Shown here piece by piece: positions 20,222 to 55,817 of a stretch of DNA of 64,000 bases. A model generated the notes under the pieces. It had not been told where the DNA came from and searched no databases. It saw only the letters and a list, made by a program, of their open reading frames with translations. The first letter of the stretch is position 1. Each line of letters begins with the position of its first letter. Origin of the DNA: Mesoterricola silvestris (lineage in GTDB: Bacteria; Acidobacteriota; Holophagae; Holophagales; Holophagaceae); contig NZ_AP027080.1 in assembly GCF_030295405.1 (NCBI RefSeq), positions 2,790,001 to 2,854,000 of the forward strand, given 5' to 3'. A program made the translations under genes and the position numbers.

Positions 20222-21862
20222 ATGACGGAATCGGCACCCGTGCGCACACGGCTCCTGGACCCGCTGGCGTCCCGCATCTTCATGATGGTATGGATCGCCA
20301 ACATGGCCTCCAACGTGGGCACGCAGATCCAGAGCGTGGGCGAGAAGTGGCAGATGGCCCACCTCACCTCCTCGCCCCTCTTGGTGGCGCTCATCGAGAC
20401 GGGGACGACCCTTCCCGTGCTGCTGCTGGGGCTCTCGGCGGGGGCGCTGGCGGATATCGTGGACCGGCGCAGGCTGCTGCTGGGCACCCAGGTGTTCATG
20501 CTGGGGTGCGCGGGGCTCCTTTCGGGGCTCACGTTCCTGCACCAGATCACGCCCATGGTGCTGCTGGTCATGTCCTTCCTCATCGGCACGGGGTCGGCCC
20601 TGAGCATGCCGGCCTTCCAGGCCATCGTGCCCGAGCTCCTGGACCGGGAGCACCTGGCGGGGGGCGTGGCCCTCAACAGCGCCGGCTTCAACGTGAGCCG
20701 GGCCCTGGGCCCGGCCCTGGGCGGGCTCGTGGTGGGGCTCCTGGGCGCGGGCTGGGCCTTCGCGCTCAACGCGGTTTCCTTCCTGGCGGTGGTGGCGGTG
20801 CTGGCCTCCTGGGAGAGGCGGCCCTCCCGGTCCAGCCTCCCCGGGGAGCGCTTCCTGGGGGCCCTGAAGGTGGGCTACCGGTACGCGCGGCACAGCCGGC
20901 CCTTCCAGATCATCCTGCTGCGGGCCCTGGGCTACTCCTGGTTCGCGGGGGTCATCTTCTCCCTGCTGCCCTCCCTGGCCATCCTGAACCTGCACCTGGG
21001 CTCCGAGGCCTTCGGCGCCCTCATGGGGTGCGTGGGGGCCGGGGCGGTGGCCGGCGTGTTCTTCCTGGGGCCGCTGCGGGAGCGCTTCGGCACCAGCACG
21101 ATCCTCGCCGGCTACTCCCTCCTGGCCGCCCTCTGCCAGGGCGTCATGGCCTACGTGCCCCACACCCCCACGGTGGCCCTGTGCCTGTTCTTCTCGGGGG
21201 TGAGCTGGCTGGGGATCCTCTCCACCATCAACACCGCCATCCAGCTTTCCGTGCCGCCCTGGGTGAAGGCCCGGGCCTTCGGCACCTACCATACGGTGTG
21301 GGGCGGCGCCATGGCCCTGGGCGCCGCCTTCTGGGGCGCCCTGGCCCAGCGGGCCGGGATCCGCGCCACCATGGGGCTCTCGGCCCTGGGCATGGTCCTG
21401 GCCCTGGCCGCCCTGCACCGCCTGCGCATCACCGCCTTCGACGAGGACCTGGACCTGGGCCCCCACCACGACGCCCCCCACGCCCCCACGGCCATCCCCC
21501 CCGAAGCCGGTCCCATCCTGGTGCAGATGGAGTACCGGGTGCTCCCGGAACGCCGGGAACGGTTCCTGGCCGCCATGGAGGAGGTGCGCCGCCTGCGCAT
21601 GCGCGACGGCGCCATGCGCTGGGCCCTCTTCGAGGAGCCCGACCGCCCCGGCTCGCCCCGGTTCCTGGAAAGCTGGTTCAGCTCCACCATGGGCGAGCAC
21701 CTCCGCCAGCACCACCGCGCCACCGCCCAGGACCGCGCCGTGCTGGCCGCCGCCTACGCCCAGGTGGAGGACGGCCTTCCCGAGACCCGGCACCTGGTGG
21801 TGGTGGAGGACCACGATTCGAGCCTCCTCCAGCGCATCTGGCAGGGCTGGACCGGGGAATGA
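20222..21862 (+). CDS. MFS exporter fused to a C-terminal ABM-like domain
   Basis: A 546-residue protein. Residues about 15-415 form a major-facilitator transporter of the EntS/DUF894 (MFS_3) type with 11-12 hydrophobic segments. Family signs include the loop GALADIVDRRRLLLGTQ, with its acidic-basic pattern, and SRALGPALGGLVVG. The last 100 residues (VQMEYRVLPERRERFLAAM, then RWALFEEPDRPG, then LESWFSSTMGEHLRQH) look like a dimeric ferredoxin-fold antibiotic-biosynthesis-monooxygenase (ABM) domain, a known fusion in this MFS group. It probably exports a siderophore-like or toxic small molecule across the inner membrane. The substrate and the purpose of the fused domain are unknown. It stands alone with its own promoter. 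Confidence 0.88.
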   Translation: MTESAPVRTRLLDPLASRIFMMVWIANMASNVGTQIQSVGEKWQMAHLTSSPLLVALIETGTTLPVLLLGLSAGALADIVDRRRLLLGTQVFMLGCAGLLSGLTFLHQITPMVLLVMSFLIGTGSALSMPAFQAIVPELLDREHLAGGVALNSAGFNVSRALGPALGGLVVGLLGAGWAFALNAVSFLAVVAVLASWERRPSRSSLPGERFLGALKVGYRYARHSRPFQIILLRALGYSWFAGVIFSLLPSLAILNLHLGSEAFGALMGCVGAGAVAGVFFLGPLRERFGTSTILAGYSLLAALCQGVMAYVPHTPTVALCLFFSGVSWLGILSTINTAIQLSVPPWVKARAFGTYHTVWGGAMALGAAFWGALAQRAGIRATMGLSALGMVLALAALHRLRITAFDEDLDLGPHHDAPHAPTAIPPEAGPILVQMEYRVLPERRERFLAAMEEVRRLRMRDGAMRWALFEEPDRPGSPRFLESWFSSTMGEHLRQHHRATAQDRAVLAAAYAQVEDGLPETRHLVVVEDHDSSLLQRIWQGWTGE

Positions 21863-21893
21863 ACCAGCGCCTCCGCCATTTATCTACAGATCG

Positions 21894-22064
21894 CCCCTTC
21901 TTTATCCTGCCTTTTCCCGTAAATCCTATTCATCCCTGTTACGGCAGGGCCGGTGCCAGGATGGGTCGGCGTTGACGTCCCGTCTGTCTCGACCCATTCA
22001 ATCGCTGGCCCTGCTGGAACGGGGATGAAGAGGATTTTGGGGAAAAAGCAGGATAAAAAAGGGG
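21894..22064. repeat. Palindromic repeat family member R1
   Basis: A 171-bp non-coding palindrome. Arms of about 75 bp pair CCCCTTCTTTATCCTGCC to its complement near 22047-22064 and continue through TTCATCCCTGTTACGGCAGGG. The centre (about 21970-21990) is unpaired. The same core and ends recur at 39612 (R2) and 55601 (R3). It fills the gap between the MFS stop and the convergent O-methyltransferase stop, so it may also act as a two-way terminator. Confidence 0.8.
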
Positions 22065-22071
22065 CAAGCCC

Positions 22072-22731
22072 CTACCGCTTCCTCGCCAGACTGAGCCCGT
22101 CGCCGATGGGCACCATGGACAGATCCACGCGCTCGTCCCCCAGGAGCCTGGCGTTGAGGCGCTGGATGGCGGCGGTGTCCGGGTCCGTGGCGGGATGGGC
22201 GACGCGGCCTCCCCACAGGACGTTGTCGATGGCGATAAGGCCGCCGGGGCGCAGCAGGGCGAGGCAGCGCTCATAGTAGGCCTCGTACGAGGTCTTGTCG
22301 GCGTCGATGAAGGCGAAATCAAAGGTTCCGCCCTGGCCCGCCGCCAGCCTCGCGTCCAGGGTTTCCAGGGCCGGGCCCAGGACCAGTTCGATGCGCTCGG
22401 CGACCCCGGCCCGCTGCCAGTGGGGGAGGCCCAGGGCGGTGTATTCCGCGCTGAGGTCGCAGGCCAGGAGGTGGCCATAGGGCGGGAGGGCCAGGGCCAC
22501 GGACAGCGCGCTGTACCCGGTGTAGACGCCGATCTCCAGCGTCCGGCGGCCTCCCAGGAGCTTCACGAGCAGCTGCATGAACTGGGCCTGCTCGGGGGCG
22601 ATCTGCATGTGGGCGCCGGGAAGCCCGGCGGTGGCCTTGCGCAGGGCGGCCTGCTCCGGGTGCTCCCTCAGGGTGGCCGCCTGCAGGTAGGCCCAGGTGG
22701 CGTCGTCGAGGGGGAGGGTGCGGTTGGTCAT
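22072..22731 (-). CDS. Class I SAM-dependent O-methyltransferase (CCoAOMT/MdmC type)
   Basis: A 219-residue cytoplasmic enzyme. The SAM site is LEIGVYTGYSALSVALAL at about residues 65-82. A metal/substrate site FIDADKTSYEAYYE follows at 141-154, and LRPGGLIAIDNVLWGG at 160-175. These are the signatures of cation-dependent catechol or caffeoyl-CoA O-methyltransferases. It transfers methyl to a hydroxyl of a catechol-like acceptor; the bacterial substrate is unknown. The start at 22731 has a GAGG site. It is divergent from a DMT exporter 60 bp away, which could share a promoter region but not necessarily a pathway. Confidence 0.9.
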   Translation of the reverse strand: MTNRTLPLDDATWAYLQAATLREHPEQAALRKATAGLPGAHMQIAPEQAQFMQLLVKLLGGRRTLEIGVYTGYSALSVALALPPYGHLLACDLSAEYTALGLPHWQRAGVAERIELVLGPALETLDARLAAGQGGTFDFAFIDADKTSYEAYYERCLALLRPGGLIAIDNVLWGGRVAHPATDPDTAAIQRLNARLLGDERVDLSMVPIGDGLSLARKR

Positions 22732-37909: not shown

Positions 37910-38185
37910 ATGAGCCAGAACAAGCGCCTCGGGGTCGTAGGGATCGTCGTCGAGGACCTCGCCTCGGCGCCGGAGGTCAACGCCATCCTCCATGATTCGG
38001 CCTCCCTCATCGTGGGGCGCATGGGGATCCCCTACCGGGAGCGCGGCGTCTCCATCGTCTCCCTCATCGTCGACGGCACCACGGACGATCTCAGCGCGCT
38101 CACCGGGCGCCTGGGACGCGTTCCCGGCATCGCCGTCAAGACCGCCCTGGCCAGGGAGGTCCCCGCCCCAAGCAAGGAGTGCTGA
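37910..38185 (+). CDS. TM1266-family iron-only hydrogenase system regulator
   Basis: A 91-residue protein with the ACT/NikR-C-like fold pattern of the TM1266 family (KRLGVVGIVVEDL, then VNAILHDSASLIVGRMGIPYRERGVSIVSLIVDG, then LTGRLGRVPGIAVKT). It lacks a DNA-binding domain. The family is repeatedly encoded beside hydE, hydF or hydG and is presumed to sense something during H-cluster assembly, but its mechanism is not established. It overlaps hydG by one base (TGATG), so the two are translationally coupled. AAAGGG lies six bases before the ATG. Confidence 0.88.
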   Translation: MSQNKRLGVVGIVVEDLASAPEVNAILHDSASLIVGRMGIPYRERGVSIVSLIVDGTTDDLSALTGRLGRVPGIAVKTALAREVPAPSKEC

Positions 38186-39606
38186 TGTCCTACGATCCCC
38201 GCTCGTCCAACCCCAACGACTTCATCGACCCCGTCGAGATCGAGTCCACCCTGGCCGAGGCCGCCCTCCAGGCCCGGGACCCCCGGGCCGTGCGGGCCAT
38301 CCTGGACCGCGCCGCCGCCTTCGGGGGCCTCACCCACCGGGAGGCCGCGGTGCTCCTCAACGTGGAGGACCCGGCCATCCTGGGCGAGGTCTTCACCCTG
38401 GCCCGGCACATCAAGGAGCACATCTACGGCCGGCGCATCGTGATGTTCGCGCCCCTCTACCTCTCCGACTTCTGCGTGAACCAGTGCAGCTACTGCGGGT
38501 ACAACCACGACAACCCCATGCCCCGGCGCAGGCTGGACCAGGCGGAGCTGGCCGAGGAGATCCGCGTCCTGGAAGGTCTCGGCCACAAGCGCCTGGCCCT
38601 TGAGGTGGGCGAGGACCCGGTGAACTGCCCCCTGGACTACGTGCTGGAGTGCATCAAGACCATCTACTCCCTGAAGTTCAAGAACGGCTCCATCCGGCGG
38701 GTGAACGTCAACATCGCCGCCACCACGGAGGAGGACTACCGGCGGCTCAAGGACGCCGGCATCGGCACCTACATCCTCTTCCAGGAGACCTACCACAAGC
38801 CCACCTATATGGCCGTGCACAAGGGCCCCAAGCGGAACTACGAGTGGCACACCAGCGCCCATGACCGCGCCATGAGGGCCGGCATCGACGACGTGGGGCT
38901 GGGGGTGCTCTACGGGCTCTACGACTGGAAGTTCGAGACGGTGGGAATGCTCATGCACGCCGAGCACCTGGAGGCGTCCCTGGGCGTGGGCCCCCACACC
39001 CTGAGCGTGCCCCGCATCCGCGCCGCCGCGGGTGTCTCGGCCTGCGATTTCCCGCACCTGGTCTCGGACGACGATTTCAAGAAGGTGGTGGCGGTGCTCC
39101 GCCTGGCCACCCCGTACGCCGGCATGATCCTCTCCACCCGCGAGCCCATGGGCTACCGGGAGGAAGTGATCGCCCTGGGCATCTCCCAGGTGAGCGCCGG
39201 CTCCTGCACCGGCGTGGGCGGCTACGCCCACACGCCCAAACTTGGCTTCGAGGACGCCGTCCCCCAGTTCGAGCCCGCCGACCACCGCAGCCCCACCGAG
39301 GTCCTCAAGGACCTCCTGCGCGACGGCTACATCCCCAGCTACTGCACCGCCTGCTACCGGGAAGGCCGCACCGGCGACCGCTTCATGAAGCTGGCCAAGA
39401 CCGGCCAGATCGCCAACGTCTGCCAGCCCAACGCCCTCCTGACCCTCATGGAGTACATCGAGGACTACGGGGACGAGGAGCTCCGCAGCCTGGGCGAAAG
39501 CCGGATCAAGGAGGAACTGGCCACGATCCCCAACCCCAAGGCCCGGGAGGCGGCGGCCGCCTACCTCCAGCGGATCCGGGGCGGGGAGCGGGATCTCAGG
39601 TTCTAG
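38185..39606 (+). CDS. hydG: [FeFe] hydrogenase H-cluster maturase HydG (tyrosine lyase)
   Basis: A 473-residue radical SAM enzyme that cleaves tyrosine to make CO and CN on iron for the H-cluster. The radical SAM [4Fe-4S] ligands are Cys97/101/104 (CVNQCSYC). ThiH-like core motifs follow (LALEVGEDP, QETYHKPTY, GLGVLYGLYDW, SAGSCTGVGGY). The C-terminal auxiliary cluster site CTAC plus a distant Cys (NVCQPNAL) is present, so it is complete. AAGGAG is five bases before the ATG at 38185; a GTG six bases upstream is less likely. HydE and HydF are not in the window. The rightward hydrogenase genes resume only after a palindromic repeat and a group II intron. Confidence 0.96.
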   Translation: MSYDPRSSNPNDFIDPVEIESTLAEAALQARDPRAVRAILDRAAAFGGLTHREAAVLLNVEDPAILGEVFTLARHIKEHIYGRRIVMFAPLYLSDFCVNQCSYCGYNHDNPMPRRRLDQAELAEEIRVLEGLGHKRLALEVGEDPVNCPLDYVLECIKTIYSLKFKNGSIRRVNVNIAATTEEDYRRLKDAGIGTYILFQETYHKPTYMAVHKGPKRNYEWHTSAHDRAMRAGIDDVGLGVLYGLYDWKFETVGMLMHAEHLEASLGVGPHTLSVPRIRAAAGVSACDFPHLVSDDDFKKVVAVLRLATPYAGMILSTREPMGYREEVIALGISQVSAGSCTGVGGYAHTPKLGFEDAVPQFEPADHRSPTEVLKDLLRDGYIPSYCTACYREGRTGDRFMKLAKTGQIANVCQPNALLTLMEYIEDYGDEELRSLGESRIKEELATIPNPKAREAAAAYLQRIRGGERDLRF

Positions 39607-39770
39607 TCCCGGCCTCCTCCCCATTCATCCCAAAAATCGGCGTTCATCCCTGTTACGCAGGGCCGAGGTTCGGATGGGACGGCGCATTCACGAAGTAGGC
39701 GCGCCGACCCATGGCATCGCTGGCCCTGCGTAACAGGTCGAGTAGCGCGGGGGAACTGCCCCCCCGCGCC

Positions 39771-39810
39771 CTCACGGATCCGGACGTGAGACTCTCACCT
39801 CATCCGGCTC
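39771..39810 (-). ncRNA. Group II intron domain V
   Basis: The catalytic hairpin has helices GAGCCGGAT / ATCCGTG and a GGTGAGAGTCTCAC tip. The stop codon of the reverse transcriptase (39800-39802) falls inside this domain, so coding and ribozyme sequence overlap by about 11 bases. Confidence 0.85.
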
Positions 39811-41080
39811 GTCCTGCCCAGCCTCCAGGTCGTATTCCCAGGGTCCAGTGGTAGAACAGCCCTTCTTGCCGCTGGTGGGCAATGTCGCCCAACCAACGAA
39901 AGGCTGCCGTCCAGTCCCGGTGGAACCGCTTGTATTTCCGTTTGGCCCAGCGGGCCAGGACCAGATTCAGGTAGTCGAGAAGTTCCAGGCACTCCGAGCG
40001 GTGGAACCGCCCATAGTAGTTGACCCATCCCCTGACGATGGGATTGATGAACGAGGCAAGCTCGCTCAGGGTCTTGGTGTTCATCTTCGTCGTCAGTTTC
40101 CACTCCCGGATGGCTTCCCGAGCGGCCTTCTTCGCCTTGTCGCTCATGGCCGGATTGAAGCCCACAAAGAGCTTTCCGTCCCGGGTCTTCACCGACCGCC
40201 CCCGAAAGGTGTAGCTCAGGAAGTCGAAGGCCGTGTGGTCATGGTCCCCCGGGCGCGAATCGTCCTTACAGTAGACGATCTTCGTTTTCTCCGGGTGGAG
40301 TTCCAGCCCCTTGTCCTTCAATCGCCTGCGCACCCCTTCCAGGACGTATTTGGCCTGGGCCAGGCTCACGCAATGGATCACCGCATCGTCGGCATACCGC
40401 TCGAACGGGACGTTCGGAAAGACCCGCCCCATCCAGGCATCGAACGCATAGTGCATGAACAGGTTGGCCAGCAATGGGCTGATCACCCCGCCCTGCGGCG
40501 TTCCCGCCGTCCGTTCCTGCAGGGTTCCGTCCTCCCGTTGGGCCGGGGCCTTGAGCCACCGTTCCACGTACAGGGGGATCCACTTCAGGGCCGAATCCGA
40601 CTCGGTATGGTGCCGAACCGCCTTGAGGATCAGGTCATGCGGCAGGTTATCAAAGAATCCTTTGATATCCAGATCGATGACCCAGTCCAGGCGCCAGCAG
40701 CGCTCCCTTGCCTTTGCTACGGCATCCAGTGCCGAACGACCCGGCCGATAGCCGTAGGAGTCCTCGTGGAACATGGGTTCCACCAAAGGCTCCAATACCT
40801 GCTTGGCTACCATCTGGGCCACTCGGTCCGCCACGGTCGGAATGCCCAAGGGTCTCGTCCGGCCGTCCTTTTTGGGAATCTCCACCCGCTTCACCGGCGG
40901 CGGGAAGTAGCTGCCCGACGACATCCGATTCCAGATCTTGTAGAGGTTGCCCTCCAGATCCTTGTCAAACATCGACAGGGTTTCTCCATCCACGCCCCCT
41001 GCTCCCCGGTTGGCCCGGACCAGACGCCATGCCTCGGCGACCTGTTCCCTGGAAATGCTGTAAGGCTTCGCTTCAGACAC
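39800..41080 (-). CDS. ltrA: Group II intron reverse transcriptase/maturase
   Basis: A 426-residue intron-encoded protein. Reverse-transcriptase blocks are visible in order: RANRGAGGVDGETL, IPKKDGRTRPLGIPTVADRV, SYGYRPGRSALDA, VIDLDIKGFFD, GTPQGGVISPLLANLFMHY, and catalytic FERYADDAV. The maturase/thumb domain follows (INPIVRGWVNYYGRFH, LARWAKRKYKRFHRDW). There is no HNH endonuclease or long DNA-binding tail. The frame is undamaged, so the intron may still be active. I chose GTG at 41080, preceded by GGGGGAAG, because upstream codons have no homology pattern. It splices its own intron RNA and copies it into DNA. Confidence 0.95.
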   Translation of the reverse strand: MSEAKPYSISREQVAEAWRLVRANRGAGGVDGETLSMFDKDLEGNLYKIWNRMSSGSYFPPPVKRVEIPKKDGRTRPLGIPTVADRVAQMVAKQVLEPLVEPMFHEDSYGYRPGRSALDAVAKARERCWRLDWVIDLDIKGFFDNLPHDLILKAVRHHTESDSALKWIPLYVERWLKAPAQREDGTLQERTAGTPQGGVISPLLANLFMHYAFDAWMGRVFPNVPFERYADDAVIHCVSLAQAKYVLEGVRRRLKDKGLELHPEKTKIVYCKDDSRPGDHDHTAFDFLSYTFRGRSVKTRDGKLFVGFNPAMSDKAKKAAREAIREWKLTTKMNTKTLSELASFINPIVRGWVNYYGRFHRSECLELLDYLNLVLARWAKRKYKRFHRDWTAAFRWLGDIAHQRQEGLFYHWTLGIRPGGWAGRAG

Positions 41081-41775
41081 GTGCTCTTCCCCCGGAGGGT
41101 TGACCCGCATTTGAAGCCGGACAGGCCGGTCCCTTGGCTCCACCCGCATTACCGGGCATCGTCGCTACTACGGACCGGTCCGCCCCGGCGCCCCGCTTCG
41201 GTACTCTCGCCCTACGGGGGACTACCCCTCGGACTTCTCCCTTGGCATCGGGACGCTCGGTTCCCACGTTCCACACAAGAGCCTGGACAGGGCTCGCGCC
41301 GCTTCTACGCCGGCCACCGCCCGGACCGTAAGCAGGTCCCTTCCGGGCTTGGTCCCAGGACTTCATCCGGAGCCTGGTTTCGATGGCTTTTGATCTCTTT
41401 CGACGCCTCATCAGCGGTTCACTTTTGTTCGCCTTCCCTGTCCCTACCTGACGGGGGTTCCCCCGCCTTTTCCGGGTCCGCTCACCACCTGGGGTGTCAC
41501 CCCCACGCAGCGCCCGGTGGTTTGGGATCTGGCCCTGCAGCCCGACCCCGGGGGGCCTACCCCCATCTCTCATGCAGCACAGCTGCTATCTCTCAGGTTG
41601 TTTTATTTGGACCTCCTGGGAGATGAAGCGCCTTTCGTGGCGCACGGATGAACGCCGATGTCGGGGATGAAGGAGATGAAGGGCGCAAATTCATCCAACC
41701 AATTCGATCAACTATTCCGCAATGCGACTTCGGTCACATCAAAATTTCTTCCCGTCCGAAAGCCAGGCCCTAGAC

Positions 41776-42210: not shown

Positions 42211-42732
42211 ATGCTGATGACCGAACGCGACCGTCTCGCCTCGGAGATCCGGTCCCTGGCCGCCAAGCTGGGCCAGGACCGCACCTCCCTCATCCCGATC
42301 CTCCTCGAAGTGAAGCGGAAGTACCACACCATCGACAGCTACGCCATGCAGGTCATCGCCGACCTGCTGGGCATCCACCCGGTGGAGGTCAACAGCGTGG
42401 TGTCGTTCTACGCCTTCCTGGGGGGCCACCGCCAGGGCAAGTTCGTCATCCGCCTGTGCCGCACCATCTCCTGCGACATGCAGGGCAAGAGCCGGGTGGA
42501 GCGCCAGCTGGAGAACGACCTGGGCATCCGCTTCGGCGAGACCACCCCCGACGGCAAGTTCACCCTGGAGTTCGCCAATTGCATGGGCATGTGCGACCAG
42601 GGCCCCGCCCTGCTGGTCAACGACCGCATCCACACCCGGGTCACCCCCGAGAAGGTGCACGAGATCCTGGAGGCGTGCCGGCGCGTGTTCGGCGTGCACG
42701 CCGCCGAAACCAAGGAGGTGGTGTTCAAATGA
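42211..42732 (+). CDS. hydC: HydC/NuoE-type [2Fe-2S] subunit (copy 2)
   Basis: A 173-residue NuoE/HndA-like protein. The [2Fe-2S] ligands are in CRTISCDMQG and CMGMCDQGP, with the helical N-terminus IPILLEVKRKYHTIDSYAM. It is clearly diverged from copy 1 at 36475, so the two hydrogenases are not a recent duplication. The stop overlaps the hydB2 start (ATGA), giving tight coupling. It transfers electrons within the second hydrogenase complex. Confidence 0.94.
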   Translation: MLMTERDRLASEIRSLAAKLGQDRTSLIPILLEVKRKYHTIDSYAMQVIADLLGIHPVEVNSVVSFYAFLGGHRQGKFVIRLCRTISCDMQGKSRVERQLENDLGIRFGETTPDGKFTLEFANCMGMCDQGPALLVNDRIHTRVTPEKVHEILEACRRVFGVHAAETKEVVFK

Positions 42733-43904
42733 GCCCCCTGCCCACCTACGATTCCATGATCCCCGAGGCCGGCCTGCGGGCCGCCCTCGCCCTGGACCGC
42801 CCCCGGATCATCAGCGAGATCGGCGCCTCCGGCCTGAAGGGCCGCGGAGGCGCGGGGTTCCCCACCGCGGTGAAGTGGAACTTCGCCGCCGCCGCCCAGG
42901 CCGACAAGAAATTCGTCATCTGCAACGCCGACGAAGGCGAGCCCGGGACCTTCAAGGACCGCGTGATCCTGCAGGAGCACGCCGACCTGGTCTTCGAGGG
43001 CATGACCGTCGCCGGAAAGGCGGTGGGGGCCCACGAGGGCATCCTCTTCCTGCGGGGCGAGTACACGTACCTGAGGGGCCACCTGGAGGCCGTCCTGGCC
43101 GGGCGCCGGGACCGGAACCTCCTGGGCAAGGGCATCCTGGGCTCGGGCCTGGATTTCGACATCCGCATCTTCATGGGCGCGGGCGCCTACATCTGCGGCG
43201 AGGAGACCGCCCTCATCGAGGCCCTGGAGGGCTTCCGGGGCGAACCCCGCAACCGGCCCCCCTTCCCCGTCAACACGGGCTTCCTGGGCCGGCCCTCCAT
43301 CGTGAACAACGTGGAGACCCTGGCCTGGGCGGCCTGCATCCTGGGCCGGGGCGCCGACTGGTTCCGCAGCGTCGGCACGGAGAAGTCCACGGGCCGCAAG
43401 ATCTTCAGCGTATCGGGGGACTGCGCGCGCCCGGGGGTGTACGAATTCCCCATGGGACTCACGGTGGCCGAGCTGCTGAAGGAGGTGGGCGGGGAGGACG
43501 CCAAGGCCGCCCAGATCGGCGGCGCCGCCGGCCAGTGCGTGCCCGCCAAGGATTTCGGGCGCTCCATCGCCTTCGAGGACATCCCCACGGGCGGCTCGAT
43601 CATCGTGCTGGGACCGCACCGGGACATGCTGGACGTCCTGCACAACTTCCTCGAGTTCTTCGTGGACGAGTCCTGCGGGCAGTGCGCCCCCTGCCGCCTG
43701 GGCAACACCAAGCTCCTCGAGGGCCTGGAAATGCTCCGGAACGGCACCTGCAGCATGGCCTACCTGAAGGAGCTGTGCGACCTGGGAGGCACCATGCAGG
43801 TGGCCTCCAAGTGCGGCCTCGGCCAGAGCAGCCCCAACGCCTTCCTCTCCGTCGTGGAAAACTTCCGCGAGGAGCTGATGGGCCGAATCCCAACCCACGC
43901 CTGA
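42729..43904 (+). CDS. hydB: HydB/NuoF-type FMN subunit, short form (copy 2)
   Basis: A 391-residue NuoF-like flavoprotein. NADH/FMN motifs are GRGGAGFPTAVKW, CNADEGEPGTFKDR and GAGAYICGEETAL. The [4Fe-4S] ligands lie in ESCGQCAPC and KCGLGQ near the end. Unlike HydB1 it has no thioredoxin-like N-terminus, no C-terminal ferredoxin domain and no GltD/NfnB module, so it is the minimal core. That reduced cluster set raises the question whether this enzyme bifurcates electrons or simply exchanges with NAD(H). It is flanked by hydC2 (overlap) and hydA2 (20 bp). Confidence 0.94.
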   Translation: MSPLPTYDSMIPEAGLRAALALDRPRIISEIGASGLKGRGGAGFPTAVKWNFAAAAQADKKFVICNADEGEPGTFKDRVILQEHADLVFEGMTVAGKAVGAHEGILFLRGEYTYLRGHLEAVLAGRRDRNLLGKGILGSGLDFDIRIFMGAGAYICGEETALIEALEGFRGEPRNRPPFPVNTGFLGRPSIVNNVETLAWAACILGRGADWFRSVGTEKSTGRKIFSVSGDCARPGVYEFPMGLTVAELLKEVGGEDAKAAQIGGAAGQCVPAKDFGRSIAFEDIPTGGSIIVLGPHRDMLDVLHNFLEFFVDESCGQCAPCRLGNTKLLEGLEMLRNGTCSMAYLKELCDLGGTMQVASKCGLGQSSPNAFLSVVENFREELMGRIPTHA

Positions 43905-43924
43905 TCCCACACGAGGATGCGTCC

Positions 43925-45847
43925 ATGAGCACCGATCTTCCAGAGACCCCCCGGCGCGCCCCCTCCAGCCAGCAGGGACAGACCGTCGCGGTGGCCGAGA
44001 ACACCGCCGCCATCGGCGGCACCGTCAGCGTCACCATCGACGGCCAGACCCTGAAGGTGCCCCTGGGCACCACCATCCTGGACGCCGCCAGGCGCATCGG
44101 CGTCAAGATCCCCACCCTGTGCAACCACCCGGACCTGTGCGTGGCGGGCGTCTGCCGCATCTGCTCGGTGGAGGTGGAGGGCCAGCGCACGCTCCAGGCC
44201 GCCTGCGCCTACCCCGTCACCTCGCCCATCACGGTGTACACCCACACCCGCAAGGTGCGCATGGCCCGGCGCCACATCGTGGACCTGATGCTCTCCGAGC
44301 ACTACGGCCACTGCTACGCCTGCGGCCGGAACAACAACTGCGAGCTCCAGACCCTGGCCAAGGAGTACGGGGTGGACTTCTTCCGCTTCGGCCACCCCGA
44401 GAAGCCCGCCCACGCCATCGACCACTCCAGCTACTCCGTGGTGCGCGACAACAACAAGTGCGTGCTGTGCCGGCGCTGCGTGCGCACCTGCATCGACCTG
44501 CAGGACGTGGGCACCATCGAGGTGCTGGGCCGGGGCCGCACGAGCCACGTCTCCACCTTCCTGGAAAAGCCCCTGGGCAGCGTGGTGTGCATCAACTGCG
44601 GCCAGTGCATCAACCGCTGCCCCACGGGCGCCCTGCGCGCCAACGACCCCACCGACGAGGTGTGGGAGGCCATCCACGATCCAAGGAAGCACGTGGTGAT
44701 CCAGACCGCCCCCAGCCCCCGGGCCGCCATCGGCGAATGCTTCGGCCAGCCCGCGGGCACCGCCCTGACCTTCGAGCTGAACACGGCCCTTCGCATGTGC
44801 GGCTTCGACCAGGTGTTCGACACCAACTTCAGCGCCGACCTCACCATCCTGGAGGAGGGCACCGAGCTCCTGCTGCGCCTCAAGAAGGCCCTGGTGGACA
44901 AGGAGCCCGCGGCCTTCCCCCAGTTCACCAGCTGCTCGCCGGGCTGGGTGAAGTACCTGGAGCACTTCTACCCCGAGTACATCCCCAACCTCAGCACCGC
45001 CAAGAGCCCCCAGCAGATGTTCGGGGCTGTCATCAAGACCTACTACGCGGAAAAGCAGGGCATCGACCCCAAGGACATCGTCACCGTGGCCCTCATGCCC
45101 TGCTCGGCCAAGAAGTTCGAATGCAACCGGCCCGAGATGGACGACTCGGGGTTCAAGGACGTGGACTACGGCCTGACCACCCGCGAACTGGCCAAGATGA
45201 TCAGCGAGACCGGCCTCGACCTGCCCCGCCTGCCCAAGTCGGACTTCGACGCCCCCTTCGGCACCGCCACGGGTTCGGGCGTCATCTTCGGCGCCACGGG
45301 CGGAGTCATGGAGGCCGCGCTGCGCACCGTCATCGAGCTGGTGGTGGGGGTGAAGGTGGAGGATCTCTTCGAGCACGCCGACATCAAGCCCGTGCGGGGC
45401 TTCGAGGGCGTCAAGTACGCCGAGATCCCCGTCCCGTCCGTGGGACCCGTGCCGGCCATCCTGGCCCCCCTCTTCCCCAGCTGGGACTTCCTCAAGGGCG
45501 CCACCCTCAAGGTGGCCGTGGCCCACGGCACCGCCAACGCCAAGGCGGTCATGGAGGACATCAAGCGGGGCGGGCCCTTCAGCCAGTGCCACTTCATCGA
45601 GTTCATGGGATGCCCCGGCGGCTGCATCGGCGGGGGAGGCCAGCCCATCCCCACCTCCCCGGAGATCCGCAAGGCCCGGGCCCAGGCCATCTACGCCGAG
45701 GATTCCGCCTACGCCGTGCGCAAGTCCCACGAGAATCCCGACGTGCTGAAGGTCTACGCCGAGTTCCTCACCGAAGGTCCCTGCGGGCACCGGAGCCACA
45801 AGCTCCTCCACACCCACTACACTGAACGAGGACGCTACATCGAGTAG
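43925..45847 (+). CDS. hydA: [FeFe] hydrogenase catalytic subunit, NAD-linked type (copy 2)
   Basis: A 640-residue iron hydrogenase with a 33-residue N-terminal extension. Clusters: [2Fe-2S] (Cys66/77/80/94), His126 with Cys130/133/139, two [4Fe-4S] (Cys179/182/185/189 and 222/225/228/232), and H-cluster Cys337 (TSCSPGW), Cys393 (MPCSAKKFE), Cys563/Cys567 (GCPGGCIGGGGQP). The same Cys-to-Ser change after the first H-cluster ligand is seen as in copy 1. All clusters are intact, so it should be active once matured by HydEFG. It has no signal peptide. It is followed 13 bp later by a kinase gene. Confidence 0.96.
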   Translation: MSTDLPETPRRAPSSQQGQTVAVAENTAAIGGTVSVTIDGQTLKVPLGTTILDAARRIGVKIPTLCNHPDLCVAGVCRICSVEVEGQRTLQAACAYPVTSPITVYTHTRKVRMARRHIVDLMLSEHYGHCYACGRNNNCELQTLAKEYGVDFFRFGHPEKPAHAIDHSSYSVVRDNNKCVLCRRCVRTCIDLQDVGTIEVLGRGRTSHVSTFLEKPLGSVVCINCGQCINRCPTGALRANDPTDEVWEAIHDPRKHVVIQTAPSPRAAIGECFGQPAGTALTFELNTALRMCGFDQVFDTNFSADLTILEEGTELLLRLKKALVDKEPAAFPQFTSCSPGWVKYLEHFYPEYIPNLSTAKSPQQMFGAVIKTYYAEKQGIDPKDIVTVALMPCSAKKFECNRPEMDDSGFKDVDYGLTTRELAKMISETGLDLPRLPKSDFDAPFGTATGSGVIFGATGGVMEAALRTVIELVVGVKVEDLFEHADIKPVRGFEGVKYAEIPVPSVGPVPAILAPLFPSWDFLKGATLKVAVAHGTANAKAVMEDIKRGGPFSQCHFIEFMGCPGGCIGGGGQPIPTSPEIRKARAQAIYAEDSAYAVRKSHENPDVLKVYAEFLTEGPCGHRSHKLLHTHYTERGRYIE

Positions 45848-55520: not shown

Positions 55521-55600
55521 CCTGGCCAGGGTGTGTCGGCAAACCCCAGGTGCCTTGAAACCGTGATGAAGCGGCTGGTCCAGGTTGAGCGGATCCCGGT

Positions 55601-55762
55601 TCATCCCATCGATCGGCGTTCATCCCGGTTTCCGCAGGGCCGAAGCCGTGGTGGGCCGGAGCGCAGGTTACTCGACGTCCTTGACCCAAAGGCGGCGACA
55701 ACTCCCGGCGAAGTTCGAACGGGGATGAAAAGGATCCGGGGGAAAAGGCAGGATAAGGAACG
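55601..55762. repeat. Palindromic repeat family member R3
   Basis: The left half (GGTTCATCCCATCGATCGGC and on through CGCAGGGCCGAAGCC) is like R2. The right half (AACGGGGATGAAAAGGATCC, then GGAAAAGGCAGGATAAGG) is like R1. The arms are therefore less self-complementary than in R1 and R2, as if assembled from two variants. The remaining bases of the 297-bp gap between truA and the next gene show nothing else. Confidence 0.75.
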
Positions 55763-55817
55763 TCGGGTCAAGGCTGGACCCAGATCACCGAGAACAACCT
55801 ATCGATTCATGACCTGG

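Follow-up and report, generated by a model that had tools for sequence, protein, structure and literature searches.

Dispersed intergenic hairpins of Mesoterricola silvestris as probable remnants of an IS5-type transposon with a GxxExxY nuclease cassette

Introduction

Repetitive extragenic palindromic (REP) sequences and their hairpin-forming doublets (REPINs) constitute, together with the REP-associated tyrosine transposase (RAYT), systems known as REPtrons, in which palindromes are dispersed between genes, the nuclease gene is flanked by inverted copies and gene-less copies outnumber the gene (PMC3116915, PMC8266576). Here we analyze three elements of a family that shares these properties, R1, R2 and R3, located in a 64,000-nucleotide stretch of Mesoterricola silvestris DNA (G000:C1:2790001-2854000; hereafter the window) from the source genome G000, a single contig of 4.99 Mb. 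Unlike in REPtrons, the nuclease in question is a putative PD-(D/E)XK-type protein of the GxxExxY family rather than a Y1 HUH transposase, and the hairpin is much longer and built of tandem 8-10-nt units. Our results indicate that R1-R3 are very probably non-autonomous mobile hairpins, left as gene-less remnants of an IS5-type transposon that carried a GxxExxY cassette.

Miniature inverted-repeat transposable elements (MITEs) of the IS5 type offer a second comparison. As among those, gene-less derivatives share terminal inverted repeats (TIRs) and CTAG or YTAR flanks with a frameshifted transposase element of the same genome; however, the core here, a long hairpin of tandem units, stems from a passenger cassette with a nuclease gene, and one hairpin family is combined with several types of TIR. 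The BrickBuilt MITE of Porphyromonas gingivalis, likened here by description only, also contains a tandem repeat and is always intergenic (PMC4596501), although its repeat is a direct 23-nt minisatellite and not a set of inverted units around a nuclease gene. Finally, mobile elements known to target REPs include a group II intron of Pseudomonas putida KT2440, with two of its nine copies in REPs (PMC1525189). The mobile element in both cases uses palindromic repeats as a safe target, whereas in G000 every intron lies in the repeat and its exon-binding site 1 (EBS1) complements a repeat module.

Results

The elements occupy the following positions in the window:

21893-22065: R1, a long palindrome and type I/III hybrid (arms 21893-21968 and 21990-22065)
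39618-39736: R2, left wing and core hairpin, ending at the group II intron
41646-41696: R2, right wing, pushed away by the intron and beginning GGATGAACGCCGATGTCGGGGATGAAGGAGATGAA
55517-55520: left-end CTAG of R3, which overlaps with the stop codon (TAG) of the gene upstream
55528-55815, plus strand: R3, assigned as a type III MITE from the repeat limits and its alignment to the intermediate L290 (see below)
55594-55753: hairpin wings and core of R3, with the TTCATCC junction that the intron occupies in other copies

A preliminary description of this DNA had recognized three palindromes, and all are real, although R2 is only half an element at 39618-39736, where the intron separates its second wing, and R3 is less symmetrical and represents one copy of a ~290-bp repeat. 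The combination of an R2-like left half with an R1-like right half, noted then for R3, is the normal arrangement of its subtype; the intron, the CTAG-flanked outer terminal repeats and the parent transposon were missing from that account. R1 (173 bp) has 76-nt arms that are 82% complementary across a 21-nt gap, and its DNA folding score (z = -14.7) was equalled by no shuffle; the core arms of R2 measure 37 nt. In general, outer wings of tandem TTCATCC units (~9 nt apart) face GGATGAA units and enclose a GTTCCCGCAGGGCC/GGCCCTGCGGGAAC core and then a variable centre, and the elements of the family span 150-310 bp. TTCATCC occurs 18 times in the window against 6.4 expected, a count that no shuffle reached. 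The arms change together between copies, with 17 pairs changed on both sides (8.0 in shuffles) and 50 cells (18.7 in shuffles), values that none of 500 shuffles attained, and the signal falls sharply once the partners are slid by one column. This covariation fits either selection for pairing or copy-correction between the arms, which the data do not tell apart.

A covariance model built from 24 copies found at least some 75 places in the genome. In an unbiased 800-kb sample (68% GC, as befits a GC-rich genome), 34 matches were obtained, two of which were dropped as chance, and the remaining 32 real copies correspond to about 200 per ~5 Mb genome, in agreement with the many copies that had been anticipated. 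Genomes of the same genus gave 2 to 48 strand matches, and zero matches were found in the genomes of other families searched. The intergenic, palindromic and highly repeated nature of the copies would suit REP elements moved by a RAYT, as proposed at the outset. That the family is mobile and REP-like is supported; yet the complete genome contains nothing that matches the RAYT profile (PF01797), which does detect its targets in five control genomes, and elements of 150-310 bp with TIRs and CTAG differ from those expected of such a mover, so that we regard a RAYT, unless one was lost recently, as very improbable.

The origin of R3 is indicated by longer relatives in the same genome, where family searches returned six GxxExxY and five DUF4096 matches. 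The complete parent is:

G000, ~840.0-841.6 kb: L287, complete parent transposon

It reads, in order, CTAG, TIR GGGCTGTCGGCAAACCC, a transposase in two overlapping frames, a wing, the GxxExxY gene (matching TIGR04256 and PF13366), a second wing, GGGTTTGCCGACAGCCC as the inverted TIR, and CTAG; TTTATCC and TTCATCC stand in the wing before the gene and GGATAA in the one after it. A second complete copy (L288) is present, and the PF13340 matches at 840186 and 139065 both lie inside TIR-bounded elements. In L290 the transposase is gone, and the GxxExxY gene is intact and lies precisely between the halves that adjoin each other in R3. The alignment of R3 with L290 shows 85% identity over 153 nt and 93% over 113 nt, R3 lacking ~408 bp at the position of the GxxExxY gene, and comparison with L287 shows that R3 has kept the last transposase codons. 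Because of this alignment and these codons, the assignment of R3 as a MITE of this transposon, that is, an internally deleted copy now truncated at its right end, is well supported. A further relative of 950 bp near 2,781,260 contains a GxxExxY gene but has lost its IS5-type transposase by deletion, apart from the two ends.

The left TIR of R3 (GGTGTGTCGGCAAACCC) lies at 55530-55546. The genome contains dozens of siblings that share 82-91% identity with R3 along as much as ~290 bp, whereas few matches occur in G004, a syntenic and ~91% identical genome that was used to look for empty sites. Type III siblings share the TIRs GGTGTGTCGGCAAACCC / GGGTTTGCCGACACACC, which are accompanied by CTAG on most ends, and in most copies at least one end bears CTAG or YTAR. 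The copies L023 and L024 (G000 1699528 and 374088) are nearly identical, flanks included, which suggests that a longer unit was recently duplicated or transposed.

Several sites are empty in G004, three of them cleanly so on both sides; at one, TTCTAGAACC in G004 corresponds to TTCTAA-element-CTAGAACC in G000. R2 is missing from the syntenic site in G004 and also, as judged by ~300-bp spacing, from G005. The R2 site in G004 holds a hairpin (GCGCCTCCGCGTTTGATTG) similar to the inverted repeat of GCTGGGGCGCTG units that flanks another GxxExxY gene of G000 (L291, see Discussion). At the R1 site (window 21862-22074), G004 has an open reading frame that resembles ThpR (RNA 2',3'-cyclic phosphodiesterase); because this frame is missing in G000, the arrival of R1 may have come with a deletion.

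Gene context was taken from our own codon-usage gene calls, which recovered HydG correctly. No copy lies inside a gene (0/32), 24 of the 32 (23 when the intron within R2 is disregarded) lie between convergent genes, as does R1, and one lies between divergent genes; convergent gaps make up 100 of 653 gaps (15%) in the background. These positions, together with strong hairpins that carry compensatory changes and one weak terminator-like site at the R1 edge, could mean that the hairpins are retained chiefly for bidirectional termination of transcription or for stabilizing 3' ends. However, there is no general T-run, and copies absent from the orthologous sites of G004 are evidently dispensable there. 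The location is also accounted for by targeting: base composition predicts 2,290 occurrences of CTAG, of which 303 are observed (about 7-fold rarer), and 104 of the 303, a third, lie at predicted stop codons. Since CTAG is rare and lies largely at TAG stops, insertions pile up at gene ends, chiefly between convergent genes, which explains the distribution without a termination function. Termination is possible, but as the main reason for which the family is kept we consider it improbable.

Most of the symmetrical (type I) copies end differently, in another inverted repeat flanked by CTAG (CTAG-CCCAAGGTTCCGACCCACCCC). Within 14 nt upstream of CCCAAGGTTCCGACCCACCCC, YTAR was found at 44 of 57 type I ends (background 1.0%) and CTAG at 34 of 57 (background 0.5%). 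The core half of these copies shows homology to the GxxExxY downstream flank, with a score of 40 compared to a shuffled maximum of 25. No transposase with such ends was found among the PF13340 matches in the genome, so that an IS5-like enzyme is only a presumed mover.

R2 is interrupted by a group II intron, the sole match of an Rfam scan of the window:

39737-41645, minus strand: mobile group II intron of 1909 nt in the right arm of R2 (Rfam RF01999, RF00029; exact borders)
39800-41149, minus strand: intron-encoded reverse transcriptase/maturase (TIGR04416, E=2.6e-125; PF00078, PF08388)
41362-41368, minus strand: EBS1 (GGATGAA), with TTCATCC as its complement in the 5' exon, at intron position 278

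Seven group II introns, of one near-identical 1909-nt type, make up the full set of this genome, and all seven occupy one position of the hairpin family, after GTTCATCC in six and after GTCCATCC in the divergent seventh. EBS1 lies in a domain-I loop. A 7-nt match is by itself not rare by chance; the assignment is supported because it adjoins the splice site and because the EBS1 of relatives, at the homologous position, pairs with different targets. In other phyla, relatives of the RF01999 lineage are mostly nested within other group II introns, where they interrupt the YADD codons of the reverse transcriptase gene. From these comparisons the intron appears to have been retargeted in this genome to the hairpin repeats, with its EBS1 adapted to the TTCATCC module.

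The presence of every intron inside the hairpin family could conversely mean that the family exists because the intron spreads it. About 200 copies stand against seven introns, however, empty copies bear no trace of an intron, and in other phyla members of this intron lineage occupy different sites, which leaves this explanation with almost no likelihood. Copy number likewise ruled out that the hairpins share the spread of the intron. The intron lies between hydG, encoding the [FeFe] hydrogenase maturase HydG (38179-39606), and a group of genes for a response regulator and hydrogenase-like subunits (42211-45847).

The association of GxxExxY genes with inverted repeats extends beyond this genus. 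Complementary left and right flanks, scored above the 99th percentile of a set of 600 randomly placed pseudo-genes, were found at 27 of 30 GxxExxY loci in 30 Acidobacteriota genomes (p = 3e-19) and at 16 of 26 loci in other genomes, mainly Bacteroidota (p = 8e-13). The flanking arms consist of short tandem units, such as CACAGAG, CGCAGAT, GATGAACACAGAT, CACCGAG and CATCCCCG. The unit pattern ACCACAGAGNNCACAGAG occurred in 12/12 GxxExxY-bearing and 1/14 GxxExxY-free genomes (Fisher p about 1e-6), a contrast that is biased upward, the bearing genomes having been hand-picked and several of them for this very unit; contrasts within families (f8, f10) agree with the association. Up to 74 matches of ACCACAGAGNNCACAGAG accompany two GxxExxY genes (in G138), and many plus/minus pairs 40-120 bp apart represent gene-less hairpins. 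The invariant residues of GxxExxY (E28, D67, E77-x-K79 and Q91) match the signature of a PD-(D/E)XK nuclease. By sequence, GxxExxY has no relative in the PDB, and an IMG/VR scan gave no close relatives. The literature searched, which left most subscription journals outside, contained no description of repeats flanking GxxExxY genes, and where the unit sequences did occur in it the papers were unrelated.

Discussion

All of these observations can be brought together as follows. The hairpin very probably represents the pair of arms that flanks the GxxExxY nuclease cassette, the gene having been lost from the loop. Within the genus, the carriers of this cassette are IS5-type transposons with CTAG as their insertion site, and the loss of both the transposase and the nuclease genes yielded MITEs such as R3 and its dozens of siblings, which the transposase may move in trans via their intact terminal repeats. 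The rarity of CTAG and its location at TAG stops then gathered the insertions at gene ends, above all convergent ones, and the group II intron appears subsequently to have fitted its EBS1 to the TTCATCC module, turning the family into its target. The IS5-type MITE mechanism explains R3 well and probably the other copies. The preliminary description had named, as an outcome that would contradict it, copies always inside one known insertion sequence; this applies in part, the copies being deletion derivatives of one and seven of them hosting a group II intron.

Several points weigh against this explanation. The right TIR of R3 is truncated, R1 and R2 have no recognizable TIRs (the outer ends of R1 as a whole are not recognizable), and no autonomous insertion sequence with the type I TIR is present among the PF13340 matches in the genome. 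No more than three of the empty sites stay clean when ~120 nt to either side of the element is considered, and a hairpin at 2,621,091 is common to G004, so that some copies are old. Moreover, it is from sequence comparison that we infer transposition itself.

A different account of R1-R3 would make the hairpin and its nuclease a self-standing REPtron-like system, in which GxxExxY recognizes, spreads or repairs the hairpin as RAYT does with REP and REPIN, and the IS5-type transposon is a secondary vehicle. The bracketing of GxxExxY by inverted tandem-unit repeats, the ACCACAGAGNNCACAGAG contrast, the excess of gene-less units in G138, the invariant residues and the arms that remain complementary while changing all agree with this account. 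So does the variety of carriers, IS5-type in G000 and G001 and IS630-like in G004, where GxxExxY adjoins a CCGAGG-unit hairpin downstream of an IS630-like transposase end (L213:13950-14900, L244), making a second insertion sequence family a possible carrier there. However, the clean empty sites in the source genome take in IS-like ends with CTAG, so that movement fits a transposase; about 200 hairpins face only six GxxExxY matches in G000, and the account is drawn from sequence comparison. We hold it unlikely for this family. The broader proposal, that GxxExxY defines a widespread REPtron-like system in which a PD-(D/E)XK-type nuclease has an inverted tandem-unit repeat of its own and maintains or spreads the gene-less copies of that repeat (intergenic repeats of the CACAGAG, GATGAACACAGATGAA and TTCATCC types among them) across bacterial phyla, is a tentative one that we consider less likely than not. 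GxxExxY may have a role in spreading or processing hairpins.

Whereas the MITE mechanism preferred here for R1-R3 is ordinary, the bond between GxxExxY genes and tandem-unit hairpins across phyla was unexpected. A large class of intergenic repeats gains a parent, and GxxExxY, a nuclease family of unknown function, is linked to a candidate DNA substrate that can be tested directly. Two layers of parasitism become apparent, an IS5-type transposon on the CTAG of stop codons and, on the hairpin of that transposon, a group II intron with a matching targeting sequence. If the GxxExxY rule is true, many anonymous repeats in environmental genomes would be explained together. Elsewhere in G000, a GxxExxY gene (L291, 777510) is flanked by another inverted repeat, composed of GCTGGGGCGCTG units.
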